DNA from: Dicyema japonicum | Taxonomy: Eukaryota; Dicyemida; Rhombozoa; Dicyemidae | NCBI GenBank assembly: GCA_011109175.1 | Contig: RDEW01000007.1 | Coordinates: forward strand, 619,712-683,711 | Reading direction: 5' to 3' | DNA: 64,000 nucleotides | Shown here: positions 14,404 through 64,000 of the stretch, piece by piece | Position numbering within the stretch: position 1 is the first letter of the stretch | Layout of the letters: every line of letters starts with the position of its first letter | Translations under genes and position numbers: made by a program | Notes under the pieces: generated by a model | What the model saw: the letters and a program-made list of their open reading frames with translations, nothing else | Told to the model about the DNA's origin: nothing | The model's database searches: none

Positions 14404-14640
14404 TGTTTTATCGTATTCTCAGTCTACTCTCCCCCGTTTACAACCTTCAATGCCAGAGTACAATCTTCGAACACTAAACAGGAAACCTTCCGCGATCCAG
14501 GAAACTGTAAAAAAGTCATTGGTCGCAACATTATTCCGCCAACTGGAAGCAGTTTTGATTGGACGACAACAGAAGTTGGCGATGACACTTATTCTACCTA
14601 GCAGCCCCTCTATGAAGCCATGAACAAATACTTTAATTAG
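14404..14640 (+). CDS. possible small two-exon gene, function unknown
   Basis: A frame open from 14389 reads FTTFNARVQSSNTKQETFRD, then KVIGRNIIPPTGSSFDW and TTTE. A candidate 27-bp intron (14575-14601, GTTGGC...CTAG) joins it to QPLYEAMNKYF and a TAG at 14638-14640. AATAAATAAATAAT follows at about 14680, possibly a polyadenylation region. No ATG lies in this frame at the start; an ATG at 14403 is in a different frame, so either an unplaced short intron or an indel is needed. I do not recognise the protein. It looks coding because of its even composition and the intron-sized gap, but this is inference. Confidence 0.35.
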
Positions 14641-14911
14641 TGTTTTTTAACATCTCTCTTGATGATCTTGGGATTCTCAAATAAATAAATAATAAAGTTG
14701 ACTTAAAAATTTTGTATTGTGAGTACCGGACAACATTTATAAACTTTCTGGTTAAATGTCCATGCATCTATAATTTTTCCTGGTTTGACTAGAGACGCCG
14801 TTATCACTGATACCTGACTATTGAACCGGATCGTCTTCAGGGACTCGCACGCAGTCGAACAGAAAAAAGTTAAGAATCTTGGCCCCTTCCCTACGATTAA
14901 TTATCATAACT
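14641..14911. other. no recognisable feature
   Basis: Non-coding spacer. I see only short AT-rich runs and nothing matching the repeat families of this window. Confidence 0.45.
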
Positions 14912-15652: not shown

Positions 15653-15904
15653 ACCGTAATTTCTTTCCTAAAATACTGTAATTTCCTGCCTAAGAGTTCA
15701 AGTAGTGGAAACATTACTCCTCTTTTACGAAATGGTTGTTATTAATAATTTTCTAAACTCAATTTTCAAGTTTTTTAGCTAGTAAAATTGCTTTTTAAGA
15801 TTTTACCTGAAATTAATTATTTTAGATCATATTTTCATCTCCAACCTTGGATTTTGTGGGAATTAAAGCATAAACAACATAAACGTGACAAATTAAAGAA
15901 CTAA

Positions 15905-18389
15905 TCAATTTAAATATTTTTCAATTTCCCCTTTTGCGGTTTGCTGTTCTTCTAAAAGTAGTCGTTCGGCCAGTTTGAAAAAATCGTGTTTGATCGCCAA
16001 GTCATAAGCGGTGTCTCCGTTTGTGTTTTCTATTTTTGGGTCACCCCGTTTCTTAGAATTATAACAAGTCATCCTTACGCCAACAACTTTTCCAACATGT
16101 CGATTTTGTCATCTCCCCCGTAGATCACATAATGCAAGGCAGTATTCCCTATTCTATTAAAATCACAATTTTTATGCACGGCGGCCATTTTTTGTTTACT
16201 TTTGCTCCAGCGTCTATGAGGAGTTTAATAAAGTCGGGCTTTTGCTTCCGAATACATAAAAATAGAACAGGGACCCCTTCTTGCCTCTTACAGGAGGAAC
16301 TAGCACCCTCATCAAGAAATCTCGAAATTTGCGAAGGATCTTTCCCAGGACGACTTATTTCTCTCAAAAGCTGAGAATTTAGCGAAAGGATGGGTTTCTA
16401 TGATTAATACTTTAACGACCTTCGACGTCTTCTTGATCGATTCCTTCTTTGGTAGAAAAAGTCGAAGGACCTTTGGGGTATCTTCAAAGATCGTAGTTTG
16501 GTAACTTATCGTTGATTCAACTGTAAATTCAGTAAATTAGCTCACAGTCATCATCAGTAAGAAGAGAATCAAAGTCAACATTGGAAAGGTATCTGTTGTT
16601 ATAAACTCCACATTTTGTTGCGAATTTTATCGTCAATATCAACTCATCGTTAACTCCCTCCCCCACTTTTGCTTCGAGTAGCTAAAATTATATGTAAATT
16701 AACCTTTCCCATTTGAGCATAGGAAATTTCTTCTTCGAATCGCCTTCTCCTGTTGCAGAAATGTCTAAAAGACCGAATATATGGTCTAACTGCTGTCTCC
16801 AAAAATCTTGGAATGAGAAAATCCATACCCTTTCCGGGACTGAAGGGAGAAAAAATCGGTCTTTTGGATGTAACACAGCTGGGAGGTCCCCTCGATTTAG
16901 TTTCTGCCTGTTCGAGTTCCTTTTGTGAAGGGTAGTACAACCCGACTGTTTGAGTCCCAACACTGGCCTTAGGGATTTCGACCATGATTTCTTCCAAAGA
17001 GGATTCAAGCTGTAACATTTCATAAATCGAATACTTTAACTTGGGGTTCCAATCGTTTCCTATAACCACGTGACCGAAAAGATTACCAGGGGATAGACAT
17101 CTGGGAGGACATAACATGTACTTGCAAATAGCACAGAAAGAGGCGGTTCCTATGTTGGCACATCCACAATGAGTGCAGCACAGGCTTTCGTTGCACATGG
17201 GGAGCTAAATTGGAAACAAGATTATACAATATTCCCACACCAGTCGCAGAAACGAGAGTCCCCCATGCAGGTTCGTGTGCATTTGCCACAGATTTTGATT
17301 TTGTCAAAGAGTTTGGAAGACTTCAAAGCATCCGTGCTTGAGGCCTGAACCTGGTAAGCCTAGAGGTTGTAGAATAGCACGAACACCCACAAATCCCTTA
17401 TTGAGGTCGTAATTACATTCCATGCAGACATTTTCCTCTTCCGGGTTGTTTTGTCCACAGTTTAGACAAATTTTTCCATTCCAAGATTCAAGTGGGGGAG
17501 GTTTGCTAAAATTTCTGACCAATGGTTTATCACAAATGAGGCAACAACTCAGATTCTGAAGGACAAACGACTTGCAGCTCAAACAATGGGCCATCTACAT
17601 TACATTTCCTTTAAAACCTTAGTAAAGTCTGGTTGCCGTGAGACCTGGACGAAGGTTTTGACTCTTGCATCACAATTTAGGCAGAACGCGGCCCCGTCGT
17701 TGAATTTTCTTGGGTACATGCATTCAGAGCATCTAAATGACTCAAGTCTCTACTTTATCTGGTTTGTGATTTCTTTTCCGTCGACATAATTCGTGTCGAT
17801 ATATTCGTCGGTGATTGTATCACCATTCTCCCCAATTTGGGTAAACTGATCTCTTTGGACGTCATCGGAATTAGGTTTCTTTTTTCCGTGTTTCAAGTCT
17901 AAAGTCACGTGGGATTTTACCATAGATTCTATCCTTATTTTTCTTAATTTCCTCGAAAGCGTTCCGTCCCTTTAGAGCACTCATAATTAGTCGGTCCGCT
18001 TCGTAGGTCTCCGATTCTTTCGATTTCAAGGGAATCCTTTTCTTATTTTCTTTATTGGGACTCCGTTCTACATTGAACGTCTTTGTGGTCACTCCACTGA
18101 ACCGATCTCTGCAAAATGTGGAGACTTTACTAACCCTTCGACTGCGATAGCTTTAACCGTGGTTTTCCCAGGTTTTAGTGAGAAAGGTTTGGTGAAAAAC
18201 AACGAGTCTCCTCTTTTGTAGGGATTAGGGACCTGCCCGTTGACTGTGTAATAAAACGAGGAATTTTTATTGTCTAAATTAACAACTGTGAGTACTGTTG
18301 AATATTTCTATTTTTGTCTCCTCGGTGATGACAAATTTTGAGTCTGTGGGCAGTCTGAGAGGTACAATTGAGGGAGACGACAATGCCAT
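15905..18389 (-). CDS. DZANK1: DZANK1 homologue (double zinc ribbon and ankyrin repeat protein)
   Basis: In vertebrates DZANK1 acts at ciliary basal bodies and in dynein-linked transport. Domains in order: an N-terminal chitobiase/Fn3-associated-like domain (SSFYYTVNGQVPNPYKRG, then PGKTTVKAIAVEG); several zinc ribbons of CxxC pairs (CSEC...CLNC, CLSC...CLIC, CLNC...CMEC, CGKC...CDWC, CTHC...CAIC); the hallmark SVGTQTVGLYYPSQKELE; DFWRQQLDHI (human GYWRKQLDHI); MGKLLEAKVGEG; and C-terminal ankyrin repeats (SRFLDEGASSSC, LIDAGAKVNKKWPP, IGNTALHYV, NGDTAYDLAI). About 14 introns of 21-27 bp are needed, for example 18274-18295 and 18109-18134. One base is missing near 16775, inside the QLDHI-MGK exon, and the last intron may use a GC donor. 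Everything else is in frame. Start is the ATG at 18389; stop is TGA at 15905-15907. Confidence 0.92.
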
Positions 18390-18589
18390 TGTGAAGATCT
18401 CCTGGCAACAAAATTATTAGTTAATTGGTGTTATTGACTGTTGCTTAGAAATTTATTTGGCCTGTTTTCAAAACTTATAAAATTTATAAAATTTATTTGT
18501 GTGTGGTCGAGCCTCAGCTAGAGCTTTCTGGGACCACGTGGTTATTTAGTTTGTGTAATCGTGGTCTCTGGTGTTATTATTATATGATT

Positions 18590-19130
18590 ATTGCTGGTGC
18601 GGTGGTACCGTCGACTGTTATGGACATCATGCCCTTCTTGTCGAAGAAGTGCAGGACGATTCCCAAGACATAAGGCGATCAAAGGAATTTTTAAGCGATC
18701 CCTGGAGTCTGCTAGATACCACTCCATACATGAACCTGTTGGCCTGGATAGAGGAGACGGAAAACGGCTAGAAAGAATTACAATCTTTCCATTCTAGGAG
18801 GGGAAGCTTTTGGTATGAGATGCCACGTGCATAGACTCCCTTTGTCCACCCAACATTGTCGAGAGCGCGATAGACAACTGTATGCCGTGGAAAAAGCAAT
18901 GAAAGCAAAGGAGAAAAAATATGAAGCGCTGCACGATCGGTTCGCGTTTGCCCCATCGTAATTGAGACAACAGGAGAAATAGCGGGAAATCGCTTCGTTT
19001 CTTAAACAAATTGGAACGCCTAACTACACTAAAAAGTCACGACGCACATGAGACTCGGGCTTCTTCAGTTGATCTCTGTTGCGATCGTGAGAGGCAACGC
19101 AACGCCTGGGATCACGTGATTAGAGATAAT
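18590..19130 (+). pseudogene. RLE retroelement, C-terminal fragment
   Basis: In shifting frames it encodes CRRSAGRFPRHKAI, HEPVGLDRGDGKR and ITIFPF, matching CKRSAGRSPKHKAL, LEPVGLCRSDEKR and MTIFSF of the long copy at 31.2-31.4 kb. It then gives VIETTGEIAGN and LQLISVAIVRGN, the conserved end of the family. The RPD motif has become RLE. It lies between DZANK1 and the innexin gene. Confidence 0.8.
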
Positions 19131-19296
19131 TTTTGATTGATTTTTATTTTTGTGATAAATAAAAAAACAAGAGTATTAAAATAAAGTCCCAGAAAGTTTG
19201 AATTAATATTTATGTGCTCTCTAAAGAGGAAGAACACTTGCTTCCTAAATAGGAAGTTCCTCAAATGAAAAACAAAAACTACGTAAAATAAGTCAA

Positions 19297-20478
19297 ATGG
19301 ATTTGGTAGCTGCTTTGAAGAATCGTGTTAAATCTTACAAAAACGACGATTTTTACGGAAAGTTTAACCACTATTATGGGGTCACACTGCTGGTCTTAAT
19401 ATCCGTGATCATCTCCACAAAAAACTTAGTGGGGGACCCAATCCACTGCTGGTGCCCAACACACTTTACGAGTAATCAAATTTTATTCATTTTAGGCGAT
19501 ATGGTGAGATATGCAGAACAGTCTTGTTTTACCGGGGGAAGGTTCTACTTCAACTCGCCTGTAAAGGAGGACAAATTGGAATTCGTTATATCGGGGGAGT
19601 TTTTCCACTGGATGATTGTGATTACAATGCTTCTTGCCTTAATGTATCGACTGCCGTATATTCTTTGGTGTCGCACGTGTTCAGTTAGCGACATTAACGT
19701 TAACCAGATTATTGAACTGTCAATCAAATGTGGAAATGTTGACTCTGAAGAGAATAAATCGAAGGAATTCAGCACTTTATTGGAGTATTTCGACAAATAT
19801 AGAAACTCGAGAATGCAGATGGATTGCGAGGGACTTCCAAAAAATAAAATTTTAAAATTTATTCATTTCCACACAAAAAAATTGCAGTCCATTTCATCAA
19901 TGTATATTTTGGTCAAATTCATGTACTTGGTGATCACGTGGTCTCAGATTGCCATTATAGAATATTCTGTTATATGGAAGACAAGGAGGAGTTTCAGCGA
20001 AATTATGTTTTGGGATTTCATTAAAGTCTTCAAGAGCGTAGAAACAACGTTGTTTCCGCGATCTGTTCTGTGTAAATTTGACTCCAAGGAATTGGGTCAC
20101 ATTGAGACTCCCCGAACGCACACAGTTGAGTGCATTCTCCCCATAAATCAATATGCACATATTCTCTTTGCTGTGTATTGGCTTTATCTCCTCTTTGGGG
20201 GTATAATCAACTTTATTGGGATTCTGAAGTGGATTTGGTACCTCTGGTTCAGATTTGTCCACCAGGGGTACATGATTTCACTTCTGGGAGGGAAAGAACT
20301 CAATTCTCATAAGAAATTTTTTATTAACTCATATTTGTGTTATGACGGCATTTTTGTAATTCGATTGGTGGCGGACAACACAAGTGATCTTGTTGTGAAG
20401 AAACTGGTCTCCAAATTGTTCCATAAATATACGATGACCCATTCGGAGTTCCCCAAGCCTTATGACTTTGATATTTGA
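19297..20478 (+). CDS. innexin (gap-junction protein)
   Basis: A four-pass membrane protein that forms invertebrate gap junctions and hemichannels. The 393-residue ORF is intact and has no introns, unlike every other intact multi-domain gene here. Landmarks: first membrane segment in GVTLLVLISVIIS (about 29-41) followed by DPIHCWCPTHF with loop-1 cysteines; second segment around FHWMIVITMLLALMYRLPYI (position YYQW occupied by FFHW); FPRSVLCKF and ECILPINQYAHILF in loop 2 (family FPRVTxCDF and QCxLPINxFNEKIF); and DGIFVIRLVADNTSDLV (family DGxFxLRxIxxNAGDLV) in the cytoplasmic tail. Length is normal for the family (350-450). No signal peptide is expected. It is oriented away from DZANK1; an RLE fragment lies between them and another follows immediately. 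Confidence 0.96.
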   Translation: MDLVAALKNRVKSYKNDDFYGKFNHYYGVTLLVLISVIISTKNLVGDPIHCWCPTHFTSNQILFILGDMVRYAEQSCFTGGRFYFNSPVKEDKLEFVISGEFFHWMIVITMLLALMYRLPYILWCRTCSVSDINVNQIIELSIKCGNVDSEENKSKEFSTLLEYFDKYRNSRMQMDCEGLPKNKILKFIHFHTKKLQSISSMYILVKFMYLVITWSQIAIIEYSVIWKTRRSFSEIMFWDFIKVFKSVETTLFPRSVLCKFDSKELGHIETPRTHTVECILPINQYAHILFAVYWLYLLFGGIINFIGILKWIWYLWFRFVHQGYMISLLGGKELNSHKKFFINSYLCYDGIFVIRLVADNTSDLVVKKLVSKLFHKYTMTHSEFPKPYDFDI

Positions 20479-20479
20479 G

Positions 20480-21240
20480 TTTTCTTGATTTAACAATGTC
20501 TTTTTCAATTAGGTGGACTTCATCATTAATCAGAGACTTAAACATATTAGGCGGATAGTATCGACACTCAATAAAATTGAATTTAAGACTGATCCCTTCA
20601 ATATCAGGGATTATTTGACGAATTGAAGAAAATGATATTATAGGGATCATCGTCCGTACGCTCGGAATTCTGACTCCCAAATCAATTAAGAAATTCCATT
20701 GTTCGATGGTCTTATGGCATCTGAAGTCTTCACAGCGAGAAGAATAAACTGCATTGCATCGGGTAAGTCAGCATATTTTTTCGAACTTTGGCTTTTATAG
20801 CGGTCGAGCGGGCTCTATAGGCACTCTGAAGTAGGCTGATAGGAGCGAAGGTCGGTGTAGGAGGCGTCCCAGACAAGAGGTTTCCCGGCTTTAAAGGGGA
20901 GGATGGTCATCCCATCAGGTCTTCTTCCGTCATGTCTGCAAAGGCCGAATTATTCGAGCATAGAAGGGAGTCAGGCATCCAAAGTTCGTTTAACGACTTT
21001 GTTCACGACCACGTGTCTCTTCCTGCAGGAGAGTGGATGCGAGATAAAGCAGTCAATCTAGTTCTCGCATCGGCATGGATGACACACAGACATTCAAACG
21101 AGTCATGGTGAGATGACTTTCGGCAGGTTTTTATGGCTCTAGGCTTCACGTGCGCGACCGAAATCCTGGTCAGTAGAGAATTCGAGGAGGGAGTGTGGAA
21201 TCCTTTTAACAAGGGTATCAAAGTCAATCATTGACAAGAG
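20480..21240 (-). pseudogene. RLE retroelement, C-terminal half
   Basis: The minus strand carries, in order, LVKRIPHSLLEFSTDQD, a CHPCRC block, GLCRHDGRRPDGMTILPF, KAGKPLVWDASYTD, LPDAMQFILLAVKTS and FLIDLGVRIPSV. These match the long copy at 30.8-31.6 kb one for one. The RPD...D endonuclease signature is intact in this copy, but stops and frameshifts interrupt it. It abuts the stop codon of the innexin tail to tail. Confidence 0.82.
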
Positions 21241-21339
21241 ATATACAGGGGGATAAATGTCTATAAAGATAGGAATTCCAAACCCGCCAAACCAATGGCG
21301 TCAATGATTTGTAGGAGCATAGGCACGCAGTCCCGGAAT

Positions 21340-21825
21340 CTCCAAAATGGGTATTTTTCTTGTGCCGTATTTTTCTTCAGGTTATTCTTTCTCCCACAAT
21401 TCTTTTAACTAACTTCCTCCATGCTCCACGGTTACTGGCAATTATTCTGAGCGTATCCAGATCATCTCCTGTTTTTAGCTTTCGTCCTACATTGGTCAGG
21501 TCCTTGTGTAGAACCTTTGGCAAAGTTATGCGAGATCTTCCACGGAACGAGGAATTCACTTCTGGGCAGAAATAGTTCTCCAGTGCTATTTTAGCAGGCG
21601 TCATCTGGCTCATCCGAAGGATGTGACCAAACAGACGACATCTTGATTCAAAGATATCCAGACTCAATGGTCTTGTATTACATACTTTGTATAGATTCTT
21701 GTTTGTAATTTTTTTGGCCAGTTGATGCCAAGCAACAGTCGGAGTTGTTTACGATGGAAGGCATCTAGTTTGTCCATTACCATTTGTGAGACTCCCCAGG
21801 TTGCAGCGTTGTACATTAGGACCGG
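21340..21825 (-). pseudogene. RTE-like retrotransposon, 3' segment of an inverted pair
   Basis: The minus strand reads PKPVLMYNAATWGVSQMVMD (end of RT), CRLFGHILRMSQMTPAKIAL, FRGRSRITLPKVL and GDDLDTLRIIASNRGAWRKL, and ends with AATACGGCACAAG. The same terminus is found in the 40.1 kb copy. It starts exactly where the adjoining plus-strand segment stops in element coordinates, so the two are halves of one insertion. Confidence 0.85.
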
Positions 21826-24430
21826 TTTGGGTTGAGCTGGTGACGTGGCTCTATTGCACACATGTCTTTTTCGTGCTTTTCTTATGGATCTTTCACTATT
21901 AGCTCGTTCAATGTAAGAGGATTAAAGTCGGATACTAAAAGAAGAAATTTATGCGTTGATCTTGAATCGTACAAGGTAACCGTGGCGTGCTTAAAGGAAA
22001 CGAAAGTAAAAGGCGGACTAGATGAAATCAACAGTGATTTCCGACTAATTCGGCACCCTTCGAATTGCCTACACTACGGCATGGGATTTGCAATACAAAA
22101 AGAACTGAACAATCGAATCCACAAGACGTGGAGGGTGAGCGATAGAATATGTGTTTTACAATTAAAATACGGTGAAAGGAACAATTCCATAATCTCCATT
22201 ATTAATGTATATGCACCAACTTCGGTGAGAGTATCAATCAATGGAGACTAACTAGACGACTTCTATTCCTCCCTGTCGCAACTATATGCATCTTTGAAGA
22301 CATCGTTCATGACATACATTGCTGGAGATTGGAACGCAAAGGCAGGACGTGGGAGTAGTCACGAAGAATTCATGGGAAGCCATGGAAGAGGGATCAGGAA
22401 CCAGTCAGATAATCGCTTACTAGAATTTTGCAATACATTCAAACTATTTCTATGCAATACTGCTTTCAGGCACTCAGCAAGACATAAGACGACATGGAGC
22501 TGCTACTGAAAGGACAAATCTGGGACTATCAAGCCTATATATAACCAAATAGATTACATTATCTGAAAACACAAGGCACTGCTATCAGATTCTCGGAGCT
22601 ACAGTGGGACACTAGTAGATAGTGATTCGTTGTGGCACGTTTCTTTTTCAAACGATATTTTGGGGTTTCCAAAGCGGCTGGCATGAGGATATCTGAGGGG
22701 AGGTTCGCAGTAGAGCAACTCTGCATGGTGGGACCGACTCGGGAAAGCTATCAAAATACATTGAGAGAAAAGATCAGACAGTGGAATAAAGAAAAAATGC
22801 CTGGGGAGCTGTGGCAAGACACCATCGATGCAATAAAGTGCGCGGCCCATTCAACAGTCGGAGTAAAACCGAAGCATTTCAAAGACACTATGACCACGAG
22901 CGTGAAGAACTATCCAAATTGCAGAGGAGCCTACGTTTACATGTCGAAACCTGTCAGGACCAGGCAAAGGAACACATTCTAAGAGTCATGCGGACCAAAC
23001 GAGAAAATAAAGGAAAATAAACTTGTTGGAATGGCTAAAGAAATAGAAAGGCTCAAAAACGGAGCGCAGATGTTCAAGGCTGTTAACCTACTACATAGAG
23101 ACACGCAGTCATCAAAAATCACAATACATGATCAGTTTGGAAAGACTATTATTATTAAGGCACTTTCACGAAAGCTATAATGATTATAGCCCCGCATGTG
23201 CAACACTCAAAGAAACAATATTTATAGTTAGTCTTTTCCATCTTCCTCTGTCGAATGCGAGTCTTAAAGACTATGTTAAACAAAAATCAAATTTTATCGG
23301 CCATATCCAGCCATTATCAGCAGACCTTCAATCAAAACCACGGGGAAAACATCAAACAATTCGATGGTGAAGCACGAGAACTAAATATTCCGATAACGAT
23401 TTGGAAACAAATAAAGCCCTGGACAAACTGAACAACAATAGAGCTGCTGGCCCTGACAACATAAATGCAGAACTTCTCAAATATGCACTAACCGAGATCT
23501 CTGAACTATTAACTAAGATATACAACAAAACATTCAAATACAACTCACCCCTGGATGTGGGTAATGGCACACTAATTGCACTACAAAAACCAGGCAAAGC
23601 TAAGGGCCCTTAACGAATTTAAGACCCATCGTACTATTGACGACTCTACGCAAGACACTATCACTTATAGTGCTGAACAGGATTGGACCTGACATCGAAA
23701 ACTTTCTCTCTCACGGTCAAACCGGATTCAGGTCAGGGAGATCTACAGCTGATGTGGTCTGGGGACATCGATGGCTTTGTGCAACACATCAAAAGTACAA
23801 GGGGGCTACTGGCATCCTTGGCATGGACATGTCCAAAGCCTTTGACTCTATACACAGAGGGAGATTTTTGGATATCTTGGAGACGTTGGTTGACGAGGAC
23901 AGTGTCAGAATGATCCGTCTATTACTTAACAACTCAGCTAAGTGTACGTTTTGGAAATTTGGAGTCTGTCCCATTCGAGACAACGTTCGGGGTACCGCAG
24001 GGAGATTCCATGTCACCGGTACTTTTTGTGACATATCTGGAGGCGGCATTCAGAGACTTCAGACTATTAATTGTCGATTTACCTCAAACTGAAGTGATTT
24101 ATACAGATGATATCGACTATATATCCAGCGACGAGAAAACATCAAACTATATACGGACAAGGATGCCAGTTGTGCTAGAAAAATGGTTCATCAAAATCAA
24201 TACGGAAAAGACGGAGACAACTACCATACGCCGTGAATTAACCCGAACTGATGAAAATGGAGATACTGTAAAAATTTGGGGTCGTTGCTCGGAGACTCTG
24301 AGGATATCACTAACATGAAGATGTTGGCCGTCGCGGCCTTAGAAAAATGGGAGTAGTCTGGAATCATCGTAAAAAATTAGCACACAATTACGTGTAAGAC
24401 TATACAACAACTTTATTAGCAATCTTAAAT
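21826..24430 (+). pseudogene. RTE-like retrotransposon, inverted 5' segment
   Basis: Begins with the family's 5' leader (TTGAGCTGGTGACGTGGCTC, 21833). The endonuclease is the best preserved in the window: SSFNVRGLKSDTKRRNL, ACLKETKV, HYGMGFAIQKEL, VYAPTS, YIAGDWNAKAG and GSHGRGIRN. RT motifs follow: NNNRAAGPDNINAELLKY, GQTGFRSGRSTADV, GMDMSKAFDSI, GVPQGDSMSPVLF and YTDDIDYISS (YADD with Ala to Thr). It stops near 24425 at RLYNNFISN, where the opposite-strand segment takes over. Several stops and frameshifts make it non-functional. Confidence 0.88.
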
Positions 24431-44284: not shown

Positions 44285-45510
44285 TGTAATACCGTTGTTA
44301 TGGAAGCAAGCCAACATCCGACCTATACTGAAACCTGGAAACCTAAGGAAGATCCAGCATCATTTAGACCTGTGTCATTGTTATGTTCCATATCGAAAAT
44401 CCTGGAAAGGCTTGTGCTTGGGAGAATCAAGGCTTTCTTACCAGAAAAGGATTTTCAACACGGATTCAAGAGCGATTGTTCTACATCAACGTACCTACAG
44501 AAATTAACCAACTTCATTAGAGATGGTTTTTCAAACAAACCAAGGCATTTGAAACAGTCTTATGTTCCATTGATATTAACAAGGCCTTTGATTCTATTTC
44601 GAGAAAAATATTATCAAAGAAAATTTTCCAGTCCGAGATCCCGGGGAAGCTTAAACTTTGGATAACAAATTTCTTAAGTGGACGAAGGGACGTGTATGCC
44701 TCGGAGGACTGAAATCAGTCTCACGTCTTCTCCCAAACGGTGTCCCCAAGGATCTCCTTTATCCCCGCCTTATTCAATTTATACCTGGCAGACCTCCCGA
44801 CACCGGAATCCAATAACGATGTTCTACTCATATGCGGACGACATTGTTTTGGCCTCGCGTGATCGGGATATCCAAAATGCTACAGAAAGATTACAAATAA
44901 ACCTGGACCGACTCAACGCCTGGGTAATGAAGAACCGACTCACGATAAATTCCAGAAAGTCGGTCACGTCTATGTTTACTTCGGACAAAAGGTTGGGGAA
45001 GATGACTGCCAAGTTAAAATTGGACAACATTGAAATCCCCTTCACCAAATGTCAGAAGATCCTGGGCGTGACACTGGATACACACCTATGTTTGTCACCA
45101 CACGTGGCAAACATTGTTCTGAAGTGCGAGAAGAGGATCAATGTATTAAAATGTTTATCTGGAATATGGAAGACAGGTACCCACCCAGTCTTGATGAACA
45201 TTTACAAGCAATACATCGAACCATGCTTCTCGTACGCGTGTGCTTCGTGGGGACCTTCATTATCATGGACGAACACTAAGAAGATTGAGGACGTTCAAAA
45301 GAAGGCTTTCAGAATGACGGAGCGGTGGTCTTGTGGGAGACATAAGAACCGGACCGACTACTCTGGAGGCCCTCATTAAACAAAACTCCGGCATGCGGGA
45401 AGGTGGCCCTGCAAATACAGTCAGCCGCCCTGTACGAGCTTGTGTGGGTACGAGGGAGGAGCACCGGGAAAGAATGAGGATTTTGGCGGAGCGCATCGGG
45501 ATCACGTGAT
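44285..45510 (+). pseudogene. LINE-B retrotransposon, RT to C-terminus
   Basis: Begins at IPLLWKQANIRPILKPGN, the RT opening. It continues with DPASFRPVSLLCSISKILER, FQHGFKSDCSTSTYL, LPNGVPQGSPLSPPYS (44725), FYSYADDIVLASR (44824), KCQKILGVTLDTHL and YIEPCFSYACASWGPS. It ends at EEHRERMRILAERIGIT, TGA about 45508. Only a few frameshifts. The endonuclease is absent, so the copy is 5'-truncated. Confidence 0.85.
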
Positions 45511-45779
45511 AGTTAGTTTTGGTTTTACCGTGGATTTGGATGTTAAATAAATAAAAATCAAATTATAGAATTAATATGTTGCTGTGGTTCTCCTCAAGGT
45601 GTCAGGTGGATGTGTTTGTGCCTTATACAACACTCAGAAAAAAATTAATTAATGTCACAGTCCATACATGCAAGACGACGTACATGCGAGATTTATCACA
45701 AAATACAAAAAAAATTTCTTAGTAAAACTTTCATTGAAAAAATTATTAATAATATTATTATTATTATTTAAGCCAAAGA

Positions 45780-47056
45780 AACACCGTCTTAACCAATAAC
45801 TAATATTCAGGTGATCCCGGCATCTCTCAATAATCGGGCCATTTTTTCTCGATGCTCCGACTGTGATCCCACGCATTTTCTATACGGACGGGGGTCTTTT
45901 TCCTTTTCTCTTCTGAAATTGCCTCCAGTTGCCTCTATGATAGACTCGAGTGCTCTGGGGGCAATTTCTTTATCTGTATATTTTTCTAGTAACTTTTTGC
46001 TTTGACTGGATATCTTGAATTTTTGTTAGGTTCGTTGCCGACAGGTTAGATCCCATGCAGCACATGCATAGCCTATTGTTGGCTCGACATACTGTTTGTA
46101 GAGGGTCCCGATACCTGGCGGATAAATTCCTCCACAGTTCCAAAGGAAGGCCTTTACAAAATTGATCTTTCCTTTGCACAGGTTGAAATATGATAGATTC
46201 CACATGGGCTGAGAAGCAGGGAAAGTATCAAAAGTTACTCCCAGTACTTTGCGATTTCTTTTGTGGTATAGGTACTCCATTTAACGTGACATCAAGTTGT
46301 TTGCGTTCCCATCTTTCTATTCTTAGTAAATAGAGTGACTGCTGACTTTTCGGAACATGCATTTAATCGATTCTCGCACAACCATCCAAATATGTTATTT
46401 AGTATTCCTTGTAGTCTTTCCTTAGCATGTTCGACGTTTACGTCTCTAGATGCGACAACTATGTCATCGGCATAGGAAGTAGTATGTCATTATTATTCAT
46501 AGGTACGGGGAGATCACTCAAAAACAAATTAAAAAGGATTGGTGACAGAGGAGATCCTTGGGGTACACCATTGGGTAATAATCCCGATCTGGAACTCTTG
46601 TTTCCGACGATACTTTCCCTCGGCGTCCACTTACGAAATTTGCTAACCATAACTTTAATGGTGCATCAATTTTTGTCAAAATATTTTTCGTATGAGGATC
46701 TTCCTTGGGACAGAGTCGAAAGCTTTTTGAATATCGATCGTACATATGACCGATTTTTCCTGTTTTGGCTTGTTCTTGTGTCCTTCAGTTATGAACTTCA
46801 TTAATGTTGTTAGGAAAGAGGTTGTTGATAATCCTTCCTTGAAGCCATGTTGGAATGTACTTTGTGGGAGAAAAGGGCGAATAATTTTAGGACCAGTTTT
46901 CTCCAGGATCCTCGACAAAACACATATAAGGGAAACTGGTCTGTAAGAGCCGGGATCGTTCTTCGGTCTTCCCGGCTTCAATATTGGTCGAATTTTTGAT
47001 AGTTTCCACAAAGTCGGTATGGTATTTCTAAACCAAGAAAATAATGAATATAACAC
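45780..47056 (-). pseudogene. LINE-B retrotransposon, inverted partner copy
   Basis: The minus strand starts at NTIPTLWKLSKIRPILKPGR, almost the same element position as the plus copy at 44285. It continues with GSYRPVSLICVLSRILEK, FQHGFKEGLSTTSF, CTIDIQKAFDSVPRK, LLPNGVPQGSPLSPILFN and ADDIVV. The tail (VLGVTFDT, GCIYPPGIGTLYKQYVEP, YACAAWD) ends in the REAGIT-type C-terminus. Frameshifts at several points. Confidence 0.85.
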
Positions 47057-47424
47057 AGTTCATATTATTCAAGCTAAAAAATTGTGACCTTTGAAATTTT
47101 TAAGATGTGTGTTTTTTAAATTGGATCACTTTTATGATTACTAACATTACCTGAGTTAAGGTTAGGGTTGATTTAAATAAATAAAAATAATACATAATTG
47201 ATTAGAATTTGTTGTCATGTTGATTTTCAAGTAATTCCTATAATCACAACTAAGGGTATAAAACTTATAAATTTCAGATATTTAATTAAAGAATTCCAAA
47301 AATGTGATTTTTATTGAAAATTATGAATCTCACATGTACGGCGTCTCGCATGTATGGACGTGACAATTAATTATCCTATCGTTCTCAGAGGCGATCGTCT
47401 AGCAGACACAGAGACTTCGCTCCA
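47057..47424. other. no recognisable feature
   Basis: AT-rich spacer between two LINE-B copies. I see nothing coding. Confidence 0.45.
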
Positions 47425-50135
47425 ATGAGATCCTCCTGACGTCGAGAGATATCCAGTCAAACTCCGTATTGAAAAAAATTAGAATCCGACAACTGAACAT
47501 CAATGGGATCACGCTGAACTCACAGACCATTTGGCGAGACACAAAATTTATATTGTTTTTCTGCGAGAGTCCAGACTATCCATCACCTCACGAACATCAA
47601 GATTTACAGACTATTCAGTACTCCGCTCAGAACGGGAAAATTGGTTCCATGGTGGTGGACTGGTCACCCTCATACATTCTTCCATTTTTCACTGAAACTA
47701 CCCAGAACACGGTCATGCAAGCCTCGAATAACCGCATCGAAGAAATTACCATTAACATAATGTTCACTCCTTACACTCTCATTAATATTTGCATCCCGGC
47801 AACATCACGCTGTCATAATAGCTACCGTCCCAGCCTGGAATTATACTCAACTGCGGTGTCCTATGTGCTAAGGACCCACTATGGTATTTGACTCAGTTAT
47901 CAGACGCCAAATGAGAACAAATCACCTTTGAACTCGAACACTGTCATATTGAACAACCGCAACCAACACACGAGATGTGAAACTCGTCTAGGGGATCCAA
48001 AGACATCCCCGGACCTTTCGATGTGATCACTTTCGATCCCATCGCTGATTAGCTGGAATGTCAGTCTGATCACAACCGATCATAATTGAGTCTATCTCAC
48101 CACCCACAACGATCAGGCGGACCTTCGCAAACTACAGGAAACGAATTGGAATAATTCTAAGGCAAAAATAGAAAGGTCATTGGAAGACTTTATTATGTAA
48201 AAATTTACGTCTCCAGATAAAGCCGTGGCCTAATAACAAGGAGTCTTGTCGACTGACAAGAAATCAACCCCAAAGGCTTCATCAGAGACTACAGACCTTA
48301 TTTAATGGTGAATTCCTTCATCTCATTCGTGAAAGGAGACGCTTAAAGAGATCGAGGATCAGTCATCAGAGAACTATCCTCGCTGAATAAGCAAATAACC
48401 ATGTTGGTTTTTAAAATCAAGAATAAAAATGGACTAAACTTATTTCCCATCTTACCTCAAAATATAAACCGACAAAATTCTGGAGATTCATCAAGGATGT
48501 TCAGGACAGTCAAACTAATTCCGGTTCCTGTCATGATGTGATCCTTGATAAAAACAACCGAACTAAAGACTTTCACCGTCAGGCAAACTATTTGATGACC
48601 CATTATTGCGAGACCAGTCACGTTCCAAAAATACTCGACCTAAGAGAGTCAACCACCACGAGGTATGAGGGGTCATATGCAAGGTCCCGTAACGCTACTC
48701 ATGACTTGATCTAAAATGTGCGCAACTCTCCTGCCAAAGGCCTTGATGGTCTGTGTATCCTCCACTTGCAACACCTCAGACCTACCGGACTATGCTCTCA
48801 AGGTCATTTATTAATTCCCAATCAACTCATGTTCTATGTTATGGAAGAAATTGATAATTATCCCCGTACTCAAAAGCAACAAGGATTCATCCTCTCCTTC
48901 CTCCTACAGACCTGCTTCTCTTACCTCAGTTGTATCGAAGATTTTGGAAAGAATAGTCTTGAACGAGATTTCTGATCATCTTAACCTTTCCAAATCACAA
49001 CATGGCTTTCGTCCCCTTTACTCGACAACCTCCCATCTATCCACGGTCACACAGTTTATTGCCGACGGTTTTAGTAATTCGAAATCTCCTGAAAGAAATG
49101 TTCTGGTCTCAATCGACCTGACAAAAGCGCCTTATAGCATTTATCGTTAGGTTCTCTCAAACAAGATCACTTCCTATCGGGAAAACTGCGTCAAACATAT
49201 TTTCCTTCTCATATGTCCCGATTCAGCTACTCCCAAATGGTGTCCCTAAGGGATCCATTCTCTCACCATCACTTTTAACCTATACCTCAGCGACTTCAGA
49301 AACGATCCTCCTTATCATACGCCGATGATCTTGTTATTGCTTCAAAGGACATTGGCCTATTGTAATGTCCAAATACACTTGACTTTGTTCTCTGACTGTA
49401 TGGGGGCAAACTGGATGTCTCCATCCACGTCGAAATCCGCAGTATCAATTTTTACAACTGACCTGAGACAATTTAACCACAGACCCAATATATACCTCAA
49501 TAACTTCTTTTAGTGGTTAAATATCCAAAATCCTCAGAGTCACGTTTGACTTGTCACTCAGTTATAACAAACACGAAGTACTTTACATCAGAGAAAACGA
49601 AAATTAAACATCCTTGATAGAAGTTGGCCAGTAGAACGGCCAGCAAAAGGAATGCCTTACCTAATTGTATAATCAATTCTGAATGACGACGGTAAACTAT
49701 ACCTTCCTAAACTAGGTCCTTGCATAGCGCTCTCCTTCATAAAAAAGTTGCTCAGGACCAAAACTCAGCATTGAGAGCTGCAACGGAGTGTTTTGAAATC
49801 ATCTACCGTCTGACAATTACACTGGAAGTCGAAGATCCTGCCTCTGGGTGATCACCTTGCATGAAGAAGCTAGAATTTCTCCGAGAATCACTTGACCATC
49901 CAACTTTCACATTGATTTAATCCACAAATTTAGACACATACGGAGAACATTCACTGATCTCCAAAGAACACTGACGAAAATCTCGCCAAACCTGCACAAA
50001 AAGGTATACATGACTTTTTATCTACACGTGGGATACGAACCCTCGAAGAGAGCAAGATACTATAGCGCATAGCTCATGTGATTAGCGATTCAGAACTGCT
50101 TCTTCTGAAGGCTGTCATGACAAACCGGTTATAAT
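47425..50135 (+). pseudogene. LINE-B retrotransposon, near full-length, decayed
   Basis: Opens with NEILLTSRDIQSNSV, a decayed counterpart of the 2A-like leader, then IRIRQLNINGI. The endonuclease continues with KIGSMVVDWSPSYILPFF, IEEITINIMFTPYTLINICI and a weak SDHN block. The linker SPAKGLDGLCILHLQHL precedes RT: SPSSYRPASLTSVVSKILER (48900), SQHGFRPLYSTTSHLSTV, LVSIDLTKA, LLPNGVPKGSILSPS (49230) and SYADDLVIA (49317). The C-terminal region ends with RGIRTLEESKIL and AHVISDSELLLLKAVM near 50120. Many indels. Confidence 0.8.
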
Positions 50136-55620: not shown

Positions 55621-57093
55621 TAGCTGTTAACTGTTTTCTCTTATTTAGGTCAAATTAGAGAAAATAGCTCAAACAAAAGTATGACTTATCTGTGAATAGT
55701 AAAAACAGAATTAATTTTGTACAACGACGTGACACGTTTCTTGATTAGGAAATACTCGATGGAAATATATAGAAAGCAGAATATACACGGGGATGAATCC
55801 CGTCTGAAGTTCCTCTCATTAGATGTATATCAAAGGAAGGGGAAGAGGAGGAACAGACAAAACAAGTAGAAAATTTAAACCAATTAGCCACTTAGAACCA
55901 CATGATGCCACGTGGCGCAAATACGCTGACAGCTTTTCATAAAAAGTAAGGCAGTAGAGTCCATGGAAAAGATAACTATTAATAAAAAGTTTTTTGATTT
56001 CCTTGGTGATGTAACATATGCTATTTTTGATATGGAAAACTCTGGATTTCTAGTCCCACGTTTCTTACAAAAAACTCGGAAACCTAAGGCTGAGAGCCTG
56101 CTCAGGGAACCATCGTGAGTGATACTAGTCATTCGGAATAGATTTTCCCTGCAATCCTGAAGGGAAATAGCAATGTAATACGAGGGAGGATGCTGCCTTC
56201 CAACTCAGTATTTGTTCAACTATAATGTGGCATCAATAGCCTCTGAAAGATGATGCCCACCTTACGCATTATGGAGAAACAAATTAACCATAAAGGCATA
56301 TTTTGTGGCCAATAGAATTATATAAAAATAATTAGAGAAATTAAAAAAAGTATGGTTAAATCGAGGTTCGATTGCAAATAATTCACCGATTCCCCAAAGT
56401 GTGACAATCAGTTCTTAAGTTAACCAAAATTCAAATAAAAAACAATTTCGTAGATAATTTGATTATAGATACAAGTCATAAGTACTTGGGTGAATAATTT
56501 GATAAAATAAAAATTAATGAAAGAAAATTAAAATCAAAGGAAAATAAAAAATTTAATTAGAAATCGATTAAAAAACAAAAAAAATCACACAAATGAAGTT
56601 ATTTGGTAAACCACAATAATTTAAAAAATTCAAATTAAAAGTAAAAAAAAAGTGACAAAAACGAAATTATATTAATAAATGATAGGATTATGGCAATTGA
56701 AGCTTTTTAAGAAGTGATTTTTTAACTCTGTCAAATAAGAAAATAAAAATATCAATGAAAATAAATAATAATTAGGTAAAATAAAAAGTAGCAAAAAACG
56801 AGATGAAAAAAGATTATACAATTTTTTTAAGTGACAAAAAGAAGATATTAATTCAACATAAGGGAATTTGACATCAATAGAATAAATTCTGATTAAAAAA
56901 CTAAATAAAAATAAAAAATGATGATTTAATATATAAATAATAATAATAAAAAATAGAAAATAGAAAGCAAGATAAAAATTGCAGAAAATTAGAAAAAAAA
57001 TGAAACCAAGAAATAGATTTAAATTAAAAAACCACAAATTACAAAACAATAAGCGGAAAACGAAGAACATAAAAAGGGATAGAATAAGGAAAA
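55621..57093. other. RLE debris, then a very AT-rich block upstream of the mucin-like gene
   Basis: At 56000-56210 (+) a decayed RLE end is present (FRNRFSLQS in the place of LFERISLAI). From about 56280 to 57090 the sequence is extremely AT-rich with runs of AAAATTAAAA; the 159-codon minus-strand ORF there (56672-57151) consists almost only of F, L, I, Y and S and is a composition artefact. The block could hold the promoter of the following gene, but I see no defined element. Confidence 0.45.
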
Positions 57094-60000
57094 ATGATGT
57101 GGATCGTAGTGATATGTAAGAAAATAAATTAATCAAATAGTAAGTATACAAATAACAATATTAACGAATGAAATAAAACTACAGATCCAACAAGTTCATT
57201 GACAGGTTTGAGTTTTGATAACAGTGAGCATATAATACAGGGACAACCACGAATAACCAAACTACAACAACATCTAATACAAGCTCGACTTCAATAAACA
57301 GAGTACAAATAAACCAACTACTTCTTTCCATGGTTTTGTATTTGATGACAAAAAGCATCGAATAATGGTACTACATCTAATAAGCAGACAACAATAGCAA
57401 CAAATAAAAGCACAACGTCAGATAACCAAGACTACAAATTCACAAACTACTTCTTATTTTGGTTTTGTTTTTGATGACAAATAGCATTGTATAATGGGAC
57501 TACATCTAATAACCAGATAACAACGTCAACTAACACAGGCACACCTTAAATAACCAGACAACATCGACAACTAAAACAGACACACAACGACCAACAACCA
57601 GAGTACAACTGCAACAAACAAAGGAATAACGACCAATAACATAACTACGACAGCCAATAATACAAGCACTACCTGGAAGAACAATGCAACAACAGCAACT
57701 AACACAGGCTCTACGTCAAATAACCAGACTACAACTTCAACTAACACAGGCACCACGTCGAATAACCAGACTACACCAGTAATTTCTACAAGAACAACCT
57801 TCAATAATCAGACTACAAATAAACCAACCAATTCTTCTTCAGGTTTGCTTTTTGATAACAAATAGCACATAATAATGGCACTACATCTAATAACCCGACT
57901 ACAACTTCAGATAACACAGGCACCACGTCGAATAACCAGACTACATTAGTAATAACTACAAGCTCAACCACCAATAATCAGACTACAAATAAACAAACTA
58001 CTTCTTCTTCAGGTTTACTTTTTGATAACATATAGCATATAATAATGGCACTACCTCGAATAACCAGACAACAACTGCTAATAACACAGGCACAAGCTTA
58101 AATAACAGACAACAACAGCAACGAACACAGGCAGTACGACCATTAACCAGACTACAATAGGAACTAATACAAGAACCACGTCTAATAAACAGATTACAAC
58201 AGCAACAAACACAGTCTATACGTCAAATAACCCGACTACAAATTCAACTAACATAGGCAACACCTCCAAAAACCAGACTACACCAGTAATTACTACAAGC
58301 ACAACCTCCAATTATCACACTACAAAAATACCTATTACTTCTTCTTTAGGTATGATTTTTGATAACAAATAGCATCGTATAATGGGACTACATCTAATAA
58401 GCAGACAACAACGTCAACTAACACAGGCACTACCGCGAATAATCAGACAACACCAGCATCAAATCCAAGCACTACCCTCAATAACCAGACAACAACATCA
58501 ACAAATACAGACACTACATCAAATAACCAAACAACAACTGCATCTAACACAGGCACAAAATCCAATAACCAGACAACAACAGCAACTAGCACTAGCACAA
58601 CCTCTAATAACCAGATAACAACGTCAACCTACACAGGCACTACCGCGAATAATCAGACAACAACAGCATCAAATCCAAGCACTACCTCCAATAACCAGAC
58701 AACAACATCAACAAATACAGACACTACATCGAATAACCAAACAACAACTGCATCTAACACAGGAACAAATCAATAACAATACAACAAGAGCAATTAACAC
58801 AGGCTCTACGTCAAATAACCAGACAACAACTGCTAATAACACAGGCACAAGCTTTAATACCCAGTCAACATCAGCAACTAACACATACACAACGACCAAT
58901 AACCAGAGAACAACTGCAACAAACAAAGGAATAACTACCAATAACAAAACTACGACTGCCAATAATACAAGCACTACCTCGAAGAACAATGCAACAACAG
59001 CGACTAACACAGGCTCTACGTCAAATAACCCGACTACTACTTTAACTAACACAGGCACCATGTCGAATAACCAGACTACACCAGTATTTACTACAAGCAA
59101 ACCTCCAATAATCACACTACAAAATTATCCAACAACTTCTTCAGGTTTGCTTTTTGATAACAAATAGCATATAATAATGGCACTACATCGAATAACCAGA
59201 CAACTATAGCAACTAACACAGGCACAACGACCAATAACCAGAGTACAACTGCAACAAACAATGGAATAACAACTAATAACAAAACTACTATAGCCAATAA
59301 TACAAGCACTACCTCGAATAACAATACAACAACAGCAACTAACACAGGGACAACGACCAATAACCAGAGTACAACTGCAACAAATAATGGAATTACGACC
59401 AATAACAAAACTACTACATCCAATAATACAAGCACTACATCGAATAACCAGACAATAACTGCAACTAATACAGGCACTATCTCGAATAACCAGACAACAA
59501 CTGCTAATAACAGGCACAACCTTAAATAACCAGACAACATCGACAACTAAAACAGACACAACGACCAACAACCAGAGTACAACTGCAACAAACAAAGGAA
59601 TAACGACCAATAACATAACTACGACAGCCAATAATACAAGCACTACCTGGAAGAACAATGCAACAACAGCAACTAACACAGGCTCTACGTCAAATAACCA
59701 GACTACAACTTCAACTAACACAGGCACCACGTCGAATAACCAGACTACACCAGTAATTTCTACAAGAACAACCTTCAATAATCAGACTACAAATAAACCA
59801 ACCAATTCTTCTTCAGGTTTGCTTTTTGATAACAAATAGCACATATAATGGCACTACATCTAATACCGACTACAACTTCAGATAACACAGGCACCACGTC
59901 GAATAACCAGACTACATTAGTAATATAATACAAGCTCAACCACCAATAATCAGACTACAAATAAACAAACTACTTCTTCTTCAGGTTTACTTTTTTGATA

Positions 60001-63000
60001 ACATATAGCATATAATAATGGCACTACTCGAATAACCAGACAACAACTGCTAATAACACAGGCACAAGCTTAAATAACCAGACAACAACAGCAACGAACA
60101 CAGGCAGTACGACCATTAACCAGACTAACAATAGGAACTAATACAAGAACCACGTCTAATAAACAGATTACAACAGCAACAAACACAGTCTATACGTCAA
60201 ATAACCCGACTACAAATTCAACTAACATAGGCAACACCTCCAAAAACCAGACTACACCAGTAATTACTACAGCAAAACCTCCAATTATCACACTACAAAA
60301 ATACCTATTACTTCTTCTTTAGGTATGATTTTTGATAACAAATAGCATCGTATAATGGGACTACATCTAATAAGCAGACAACAACGTCAACTAACACAGG
60401 CACTACCGCGAATAATCAGACAACACCAGCATCAAATCCAAGCACTACCTCCAATAACCAGACAACAACATCAACAAATACAGACACTACATCAAATAAC
60501 CAAACAACAACTGCATCTAACACAGGCACAAAATCCAATAACCAGACAACAACAGCAACTAGCACTAGCACAACCTCTAATAACCAGATAACAACGTCAA
60601 CCTACACAGGCACTACGCGAATAATCAGACAACAACAGCATCAAATCCAAGCACTACCTCCAATAACCAGACAACAACATCAACAAATACAGACACTACA
60701 TCGAATAACCAAACAACAACTGCATCTAACACAGGAACAAATCCAATAACAATACAACAAGAGCAATTAACACAGGCTCTACGTCAAATAACCAGACAAA
60801 CAACTGCTAATAACACAGGCACAAGCTTTAATACCCAGTCAACATCAGCAACTAACACATACACAACGACCAATAACCAGAGAACAACTGCAACAAACAA
60901 AGGAATAACTACCAATAACAAACTACGACTGCCAATAATACAAGCACTACCTCGAAGAACAATGCAACAACAGCGACTAACACAGGCTCTACGTCAAATA
61001 ACCCGACTACTACTTTAACTAACACAGGCACCATGTCGAATAACCAGACTACACCAGTATTTACTACAAGCACAACCTCCAATAATCACACTACAAATTA
61101 TCCAACAACTTCTTCAGGTTTGCTTTTTGATAACAAATAGCATATAATAATGGCACTACATCGAATAACCAGACAACTATAGCAACTAACACAGGCACAA
61201 CGACCAATAACCAGAGTACAACTGCAACAAACAATGGAATAACAACTAATAACAAAACTACTATAGCCAATAATACAAGCACTACCTCGAATAACAATAC
61301 AACAACAGCAACTAACACAGGGACAACGACCAATAACCAGAGTACAACTGCAACAAATAATGGAATTACGACCAATAACAAAACTACTACATCCAATAAT
61401 ACAAGCACTACATCGAATAACCAGACAATAACTGCAACTAATACAGGCACTATCTCGAATAACCAGACAACAACTGCTAATAACACAGGCACAACCTTAA
61501 ATAACCAGACAACATCGACAACTAAAACAGACACAACGACCAACAACCAGAGTACAACTGCAACAAACAAAGGAATAACGACCAATAACATAACTACGAC
61601 AGCCAATAATACAAGCACTACCTGGAAGAACAATGCAACAACAGCAACTAACACAGGCTCTACGTCAAATAACCAGACTACAACTTCAACTAACACAGGC
61701 ACCACGTCGAATAACCAGACTACACCAGTAATTTCTACAAGAACAACCTTCAATAATCAGACTACAAATAAACCAACCAATTCTTCTTCAGGTTTGCTTT
61801 TTGATAACAAATAGCACATAATAATGGCACTACATCTAATAACCCGACTACAACTTCAGATAACACAGGCACCACGTCGAATAACCAGACTACATTAGTA
61901 ATAACTACAAGCTCAACCACCAATAATCAGACTACAAATAAACAAACTACTTCTTCTTCAGGTTTACTTTTTGATAACATATAGCATATAATAATGGCAC
62001 TACCTCGAATAACCAGACAACAACTGCTAATAACACAGGCACAAGCTTAAATAACCAGACAACAACAGCAACGAACACAGGCAGTACGACCATTAACCAG
62101 ACTACAATAGGAACTAATACAAGAACCACGTCTAATAAACAGATTACAACAGCAACAAACACAGTCTATACGTCAAATAACCCGACTACAAATTCAACTA
62201 ACATAGGCAACACCTCCAAAAACCAGACTACACCAGTAATTACTACAAGCACAACCTCCAATTATCACACTACAAAAATACCTATTACTTCTTCTTTAGG
62301 TATGATTTTTGATAACAAATAGCATCGTATAATGGGACTACATCTAATAAGCAGACAACAACGTCAACTAACACAGGCACTACCGCGAATAATCAGACAA
62401 CACCAGCATCAAATCCAAGCACTACCTCCAATAACCAGACAACAACATCAACAAATACAGACACTACATCAAATAACCAAACAACAACTGCATCTAACAC
62501 AGGCACAAAATCCAATAACCAGACAACAACAGCAACTAGCACTAGCACAACCTCTAATAACCAGATAACAACGTCAACCTACACAGGCACTACCGCGAAT
62601 AATCAGACAACAACAGCATCAAATCCAAGCACTACCTCCAATAACCAGACAACAACATCAACAAATACAGACACTACATCGAATAACCAAACAACAACTG
62701 CATCTAACACAGGAACAAAATCCAATAACAATACAACAAGAGCAATTAACACAGGCTCTACGTCAAATAACCAGACAACAACTGCTAATAACACAGGCAC
62801 AAGCTTTAATACCCAGTCAACATCAGCAACTAACACATACACAGACCAATAACCAGAGAACAACTGCAACAAACAAAGGAATAACTACCAATAACAAAAC
62901 TACGACTGCCAATAATACAAGCACTACCTCGAAGAACAATGCAACAACAGCGACTAACACAGGCTCTACGTCAAATAACCGACTACTACTTTAACTAACA

Positions 63001-64000
63001 CAGGCACCATGTCGAATAACCAGACTACACCAGTATTTACTACAAGCACAACCTCCAATAATCACACTACAAATTATCCAACAACTTCTTCAGGTTTGCT
63101 TTTTGATAACAAATAGCATATAATAATGGCACTACATCGAATAACCAGACAACTATAGCAACTAACACAGGCACAACGACCAATAACCAGAGTACAACTG
63201 CAACAAACAATGGAATAACAACTAATAACAAAACTACTATAGCCAATAATACAAGCACTACCTCGAATAACAATACAACAACAGCAACTAACACAGGGAC
63301 AACGACCAATAACCAGAGTACAACTGCAACAAATAATGGAATTACGACCAATAACAAAACTACTACATCCAATAATACAAGCACTACATCGAATAACCAG
63401 ACAATAACTGCAACTAATACAGGCACTATCTCGAATAACCAGACAACAACTGCTAATAACACAGGCACAACCTTAAATAACCAGACAACATCGACAACTA
63501 AAACAGACACAACGACCAACAACCAGAGTACAACTGCAACAAACAAAGGAATAACGACCAATAACATAACTACGACAGCCAATAATACAAGCACTACCTG
63601 GAAGAACAATGCAACAACAGCAACTAACACAGGCTCTACGTCAAATAACCAGACTACAACTTCAACTAACACAGGCACCACGTCGAATAACCAGACTACA
63701 CCAGTAATTTCTACAAGAACAACCTTCAATAATCAGACTACAAATAAACCAACCAATTCTTCTTCAGGTTTGCTTTTTGATAACAAATAGCACATAATAA
63801 TGGCACTACATCTAATAACCCGACTACAACTTCAGATAACACAGGCACCACGTCGAATAACCAGACTACATTAGTAATAACTACAAGCTCAACCACAATA
63901 ATCAGACTACAAATAAACAAACTACTTCTTCTTCAGGTTTACTTTTTGATAACATATAGCATATAATAATGGCACTACCTCGAATAACCAGACAACAACT
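57094..64000 (+). CDS. mucin-like Thr/Asn/Ser-rich repeat protein, many 23-bp introns (3' end outside window)
   Basis: The inferred product is a giant extracellular or surface glycoprotein. A possible start at 57094 reads MMWIVVI, then a 25-bp intron (57116-57140) and LSIQITIL, which resembles a signal peptide; one base must be missing before 57205 to stay in frame. From 57170 on, every exon reads in the same style: TTSNNQTTTATNTGT and variants, a 15-residue unit rich in Thr with an NxT sequon (NNQT, NNKT) in nearly every copy. So heavy O- and N-glycosylation is plausible. Introns with GT...AG ends and a shared TTTTTGATAACA-type core split it at 57206, 57333, 57462, 57843, 58013, 58350, 59145, 59817, 59985, 60323, 61118, 61792, 61962, 62300, 63094, 63768 and 63937, each 23 bp (59985: 24). 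All split the codon after its first base (G|CA or similar). Single-base indels disturb several exon copies. Confidence 0.7.
57171..57865 (+). repeat. proximal, more divergent part of the exon-intron array
   Basis: Three shorter exons (57229-57332, 57356-57461 and 57485-57842) precede the regular array. Their introns (57333 and 57462 sites) have GATGACAAA where later ones have GATAACAAA, and the first exon pair is about 105 bp. They look like older, unhomogenised relatives at the edge of the array. Confidence 0.75.
57866..59839 (+). repeat. higher-order repeat, unit 1
   Basis: A unit of 1974 bp: four exons of 147, 314, 772 and 649 bp, each followed by a 23-bp intron. Compared with unit 3 it has a few single-base losses, for example in the ACAGGAACAAA-ATCC stretch near 58770 and one AACACAGG near 59510. 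Confidence 0.92.
59840..61814 (+). repeat. higher-order repeat, unit 2
   Basis: 1975 bp. Same order of four exons (145, 314, 772, 651 bp) and introns; the first intron has one extra T (24 bp, 59985-60008). By eye nearly identical to units 1 and 3 apart from indels. Confidence 0.92.
61815..63790 (+). repeat. higher-order repeat, unit 3
   Basis: 1976 bp. Exons of 147, 315, 771 and 651 bp, all multiples of three, though the third exon has two small compensating losses (near 62843 and 62980). Confidence 0.92.
63791..64000 (+). repeat. higher-order repeat, unit 4 (cut by window end)
   Basis: Starts with the 146-bp first exon and its intron (63937-63959), then the beginning of the second exon. 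The array therefore continues beyond the window. Confidence 0.9.

Follow-up and report, generated by a model that had tools for sequence, protein, structure and literature searches.

Organisation of the array

The window analysed here is a stretch of 64,000 nucleotides of the Dicyema japonicum genome (C159:619712-683711, C159 being contig RDEW01000007.1 in an assembly of 64,672,829 bases and 191 contigs). Its distal end holds the start of a putative gene, gene A, in which a tandem array of repeats is interrupted by very short intron-like elements. A sequence-only reading of the window had placed the start at position 57094, the ATG of a putative exon that is identical in gene A and a paralogue, gene B. 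The features are as follows, with splice scores taken from the model described below.

57094..57115, forward strand: putative exon 1 of gene A (ATG; MMWIVVI...), the putative start of a signal-peptide-like N-terminus, within a 159-nt run identical to B
57116..57140, forward strand: putative intron 1, 25 nt, GT-AG; identical in B; splice score 2.4, inside the training range
57206..57228, forward strand: divergent 23-nt intron A1 at the 5' edge; counterpart in B; splice score -2.3, below every training intron
57333..57355, forward strand: divergent 23-nt intron A2; counterpart in B; splice score 1.1
57462..57484, forward strand: divergent 23-nt intron A3; counterpart in B; splice score 4.7
57843..59816, forward strand: cassette copy 1, introns at 57843, 58013, 58350 and 59145
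59817..61791, forward strand: cassette copy 2, introns at 59817, 59985 (24 nt), 60323 and 61118
61792..63767, forward strand: cassette copy 3, introns at 61792, 61962, 62300 and 63094; exons of 147, 315, 771 and 651 nt
63768..64000, forward strand: start of cassette copy 4, introns at 63768 and 63937; the array runs on past the window

A pattern search returned 17 intron-like GT...AG elements between 57206 and 63937, of which a narrower pattern recovered 16, together with one unrelated 27-nt match at 39949. At least 17 nearly identical 23-bp introns had been claimed here. The count stands, but the sameness holds only in part: 16 elements are of 23 bp and one (59985-60008) of 24 bp, and three of the 17 (57206, 57333 and 57462) are divergent and, compared over 30 bases, differ by 5-7 edits from the main types.

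Beyond the window, array A was read from C159:674001-734000 and found to continue for a further ~29 kb, to about C159:712.6 kb, up to which point the pattern search yielded 70 elements. An edit-distance scan of C159:676.8-713.5 kb gave 74 matches at ≤9 edits; the one at 713196 (9 edits) looks like a chance match and, once it is set aside, 73 intron-like elements remain in ~36 kb. Of these, 70 lie within two edits of one of three types (a, b and c), 66 of them within one, and the three at the 5' edge are 5-7 edits off. In the main array, the pattern requiring both GT and AG found 67 elements (53 of 23 nt, seven of 24, six of 22 and one of 21), while the edit-distance scan, which has no such requirement, added three further ones to make the 70 within two edits of a type. 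Three exact 23-mers account for 51 of 70 array elements. A 30-base pattern of intron plus flank (≤3 mismatches) matched 52 times in the whole 64.67-Mb assembly, always within C159:677549-712634 and on a single strand, against 0 matches for the reversed pattern as control; the array elements are thus not the product of chance.

Structure and frame of the cassette

The proposal that a four-exon, four-intron cassette is the unit of amplification was confirmed, the introns following the order a-b-c-a with spacings of about 170, 338, 797 and 675 bp. The cassette starts given for the window (57843, 59817, 61792 and 63768) are exact, as are their spacings of 1974, 1975 and 1976 bp; the consensus unit, however, measures 1979 bp, since the copies in the window carry small deletions. 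The protein repeat, described earlier as one of 15 codons, has 14 (42 bp).

The consensus exons of 147, 315, 774 and 651 nt, built from 57 of the 66 main-array exons (nine of other lengths being excluded), are each a multiple of three with 0 stops in the phase-1 frame, and all consensus introns of the cassette are in phase 1. Among the 69 individual exons as assembled, 32 are a multiple of three in length. The phase-1 frame is fully open in 21 of these, which are the only fully open exons of the 69, whereas neither other frame is open in any of the 32. It had also been noted that removal of the introns turns an in-frame TAG into open sequence, and this was seen throughout the array: left unspliced, 51 of 70 elements yield GLLFDNK, GLLFDNI or GMIFDNK followed by a stop, and read-through stays open over the next 60 nt in only one of the 70 (57206).

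The conservation of GT and AG ends, length and phase, remarked upon in the same reading, holds for phase 1 in the consensus. As a sign of selection, the constancy of the introns across cassettes was considered and rejected, because the cassettes are copies of one another that agree in 99.7% of aligned bases.

Rearranged cassettes occur at C159:689.6-690.3, 702.9-703.5 and 710.4-710.8 kb. Judged by eye from the spacing, the first two each lack one a and one b intron together with exon sequence, and inspection of array A in the same manner revealed no case of an intron lost alone.

Comparison with introns of the same genome

The splice model was trained on HSP70 and protein-kinase genes, in which 27 exon joins were examined. 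We took 21 of these as introns of 20-26 nt, one as an intron of 54 nt, which was excluded from the model, and five as lacking a clean join; where a join was ambiguous, the option best continuing the known protein was chosen, which is a matter of judgement. The consensus cassette contains 12 GT-AG candidates 19-30 nt long, among which its four array introns rank 1-4, with scores of 2.8 to 4.5 compared to at most -2.4 for the other candidates and -1.0 to 8.1 for the training introns. The array elements combine GT and AG ends with a length typical of the introns sampled from this genome (20-26 nt, one of 54).

Further evidence comes from gene B, which keeps GT, AG and 23 nt in its three 5' introns despite differing at 12 of 69 bases (counted by hand). 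On these grounds, the reading of the 23-nt segments as introns is likely to be right, and the splice model and the paralogue together support the earlier claim that the tandem array is coding, that its exons and 23-bp introns have been amplified together and that splicing would be needed in every unit. According to two published accounts, introns of Dicyema sp. have a median of 27 nt, with about two thirds below 30 nt, and dicyemid genes contain about 5-6 introns each (PMC6543705, PMC6736024). The introns of array A resemble these in their very small size; arrays of copied introns go unmentioned in the text consulted.

The predicted protein

The consensus unit encodes 629 residues (T 39.3%, N 21.6%, S 11.8%) built of 14-residue repeats. 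Support for a coding role comes from the distribution of differences among repeats: among the 42-bp units of array A (n=32), single-base codon differences divide into 1498 synonymous and 1109 nonsynonymous in the predicted frame, as opposed to 512:2422 and 327:2619 in the shifted frames, that is, 57% synonymous versus 17% and 11%. The 81 distinct units of array B give 7497:7365 versus 2515:13640 and 1510:15453 (50% versus 16% and 9%). Selection of the units relied on a three-residue motif read in the tested frame, which slightly favours that frame.

Gene A would encode a long Ser/Thr-rich tandem-repeat ectodomain, as expected of transmembrane mucins. Its ends fit a membrane mucin as well: the predicted start resembles a signal peptide, and beyond the Thr/Asn/Ser-rich ectodomain lies a hydrophobic stretch that would span the membrane. 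By hydropathy, the N-terminus, read from the letters of B, holds a 12-residue hydrophobic stretch (mean 2.79), while the putative transmembrane stretch near the C-terminus, LLAIILPIVFIILFSIILF, has a mean of 3.29. Enrichment in N-glycosylation sites was tried as a further indication and rejected, N-x-S/T sites being fewer than in shuffled sequences (54 versus 68); the mucin label therefore rests on composition and on the ends.

We assign gene A to no mucin family. Neither a SEA nor another mucin domain was detected, as 245 residues of the unit and 90 residues of the C-terminus matched nothing in Pfam at E ≤ 0.001. A protein search with 425 residues of the unit likewise gave no match at E ≤ 0.001 among the best 7980 candidates by shared words, which, given this ceiling on candidates and the repeat composition, is weak evidence of absence. 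Rfam had no match at gathering scores within the window. The frame of the C-terminal tail hangs on homopolymer (T) runs of unequal length in A and B, so that any reading of the cytoplasmic tail would be provisional. A candidate third intron of 26 nt lies in the last exon, where A and B again differ in homopolymer length.

An intron-poor paralogue

Gene B starts at C159:821279, ~108 kb beyond the end of A, and apparently extends to about 826.7 kb. At the 5' end it matches A at 87% over 1337 columns, and the last exons are common to both genes. Within this likeness, 159 consecutive bases are identical (window 57011-57169, in B at C159:821.2 kb), a stretch that takes in the putative first exon and the intron after it; identity of this length amid ~87% likeness points to either recent gene conversion or strong constraint. 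Once the introns are removed, the reading of B opens with MMWIVVILSIQITILTNNIKTADPTGSST; the exons measure 22, 66, 105 and 104 nt, and the join of exons 1 and 2 is open in its letters. Its third array intron is not in phase 1 as assembled, the 104-nt exon being one base off a multiple of three.

The three 5' intron-like elements of B pair with the three divergent ones of A. In the remaining ~4.6 kb of its array, no element resembling types a, b or c (≤9 edits) was found; one more match lies outside the gene. As the search was confined to such elements, and as the array of B shifts frame at several points, we describe B as intron-poor rather than proven intron-free. Its best ungapped self-matches fall at 42, 84 and 126 bp (65%, 61% and 60%), with no long cassette. 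Homogenisation in long cassettes is thus seen in the intron-bearing array but not in the intron-poor one, a correlation observed in one pair of genes.

Frame breaks and alternative explanations

Ten complete cassettes of array A were compared, defined as the ten of 15 b-intron spacings that fall within 1950-2010 bp. They agree in 99.7% of aligned bases and have a mean of 12 gap columns per pair. Against their consensus they show 25 substitutions and 64 indel columns, and five of them have zero substitutions. At the level of exons, 174 substitutions and 100 indels were counted when gaps were penalised stiffly, whereas a minimal-edit recount of 57 exons gave 116 substitutions and 139 indel bases; the argument for noise leans on the alignment method, since the stiff penalty reversed the balance. 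In the recount, 98 of the 116 substitutions sit in the three most divergent exons, and the other 54 exons carry 18 substitutions and 126 indels. One exon of the 315-nt group, at C159:712294, contributes 64 substitutions and is apparently a different, terminal exon sorted in by length. A surplus of indels over substitutions is what errors of long-read consensus produce, so we infer from the letters that most frame breaks are assembly errors of this kind. Departures from consensus are commoner in introns (13 of 920 bases) than in exons (52 of 18870), which T runs inside the introns may explain.

The same data could be read differently, with A as a decayed and untranslated copy, once spliced and now drifting like a satellite, and B as the working gene. 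The small number of intact exons as assembled (21 of 69) would agree with decay, as would the weak 5' intron A1 and exon 2 of A, which in alignment is one base shorter than that of B and hence shifts the frame. Yet most departures are scattered indels with few substitutions, the consensus exons are open throughout, the array of B carries frame breaks too, and the four A/B differences in the transmembrane exon (18 codons before the unequal T run) are all synonymous; decay thus appears unlikely. Somewhat less probable still is an inflation of cassette number during the assembly of near-identical repeats. Cassettes that are error-rich and 99.7% identical in aligned bases would invite such an artefact, but it would touch copy number only. 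A real array is favoured by the a-b-c-a order, in which several cassettes are rearranged in different ways, by ends that are free of repeats and by the paralogue.

The segments might also be DNA removed during somatic development rather than introns. Dicyemids eliminate repeat DNA, and the frame does stay open only if the message lacks the segments. One genomic study, moreover, discusses circular DNA of Dicyema (PMC6543705). Against this, the GT-AG ends, length and composition of the segments match introns of unrelated genes in the same assembly, and we regard somatic excision as highly improbable.

Proposed explanation

We consider gene A to be, with good probability, the gene of a giant mucin-like, probably type I transmembrane glycoprotein in which a cassette with copied mini-introns has been multiplied and homogenised. 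Tiny phase-1 spliceosomal introns would have been present three times at the 5' end before A and B split, and would have been carried along in the tandem duplication of segments. A four-exon, four-intron segment of ~1979 bp would then have been multiplied and homogenised, most likely through unequal crossing-over or gene conversion. In the consensus every intron is in phase 1 and every exon a multiple of three, so that gain or loss of a cassette would keep the frame, provided that the introns are spliced; unspliced, translation would stop at the TAG of the first retained main-type intron. The transcription, splicing, glycosylation and surface location of A, as well as the mechanism of recombination, are inferred here from its sequence.

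A more speculative extension, which we advance as doubtful, is that the copied introns themselves shape the gene. Their regular spacing might hold recombination in register, such that A is homogenised as 1979-bp cassettes and B is not. With splice sites that are alike, and with phase-1 introns and exons divisible by three in the consensus, skipped blocks would stay in frame, and a ladder of mucin lengths might result.

Relation to known systems

The sequence-only reading had supposed an array carrying miniature introns in its unit to be undescribed. This was not borne out, as published accounts report introns within repeat units for Argiope MaSp2, Cryptococcus CNN00420 and MUC16. In Argiope MaSp2, near-identical small introns lie between similar exons and are homogenised within a gene (97.6% on average), and in some of these genes two exons and two introns form a repeated core unit, in alternation (PMC9779670). 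That study also reports MaSp2 genes without repetitive introns to be less regular; its authors propose that repetitive introns promote the homogenisation of coding repeats, and knew of no further gene in which two types of homogenised intron alternate (PMC9779670). Gene A shares with MaSp2 the repetition of near-identical introns together with exons. MaSp2 is, however, a spider silk protein, whereas A would encode a mucin-like membrane protein and has 23-nt introns, four of three types per unit. In the flagelliform spidroin gene, an exon plus an intron reportedly forms the repeated unit, with far longer introns. The Argiope study names its introns as repetitive and homogenised (PMC9779670). 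Gene A differs from it in protein class and phylum.

Longer introns also characterise MUC16/CA125, to which A is likened by introns inside the repeated unit. MUC16 is described as a giant membrane mucin with 156-residue repeats of five exons each (PMC3431878); unlike A, it is a vertebrate protein with SEA domains, and homology is not claimed. Cryptococcus CNN00420 is reported to have gained identical introns via the expansion of an intron-containing repeat (PMC2395259), in a gene of six introns compared to the 73 array introns of A. A literature search, with subscription papers mostly outside its reach, found no account of this gene or of any dicyemid mucin. The kind of structure is known and the variant new; its value lies in the sister pair of intron-rich and intron-poor genes and in the very small introns.

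The pair offers, within one genome and outside spiders, a contrast similar to that of Argiope: two genes with shared ends, ~108 kb apart, A with introns throughout its repeats and B in which the search located introns of this sort at the 5' end only. This constitutes a natural test of the effect of copied introns. Gene A suggests that mere duplication of segments may bring the introns of one gene to over 70, and it sets a demanding test for the splicing of 23-nt introns.

Other features of the window

Elsewhere in the window, frames resembling LINE-type reverse transcriptases were recognised by eye in translations at about 11773-24318 and 44285-49150. A DDE_3 transposase-like open frame (PF13358) at 4755-5429 lies near a 20/41-bp repeat array at 4385-4559, and a 119-bp unit occurs in two tandem copies at 10724-10961 (98% matches). 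An uninterrupted innexin frame of 409 aa (Pfam PF00876) spans 19249-20478; as its seven matches are only 23-27% identical, the best named one being from Chaetopterus (27%), we term it a divergent animal innexin.
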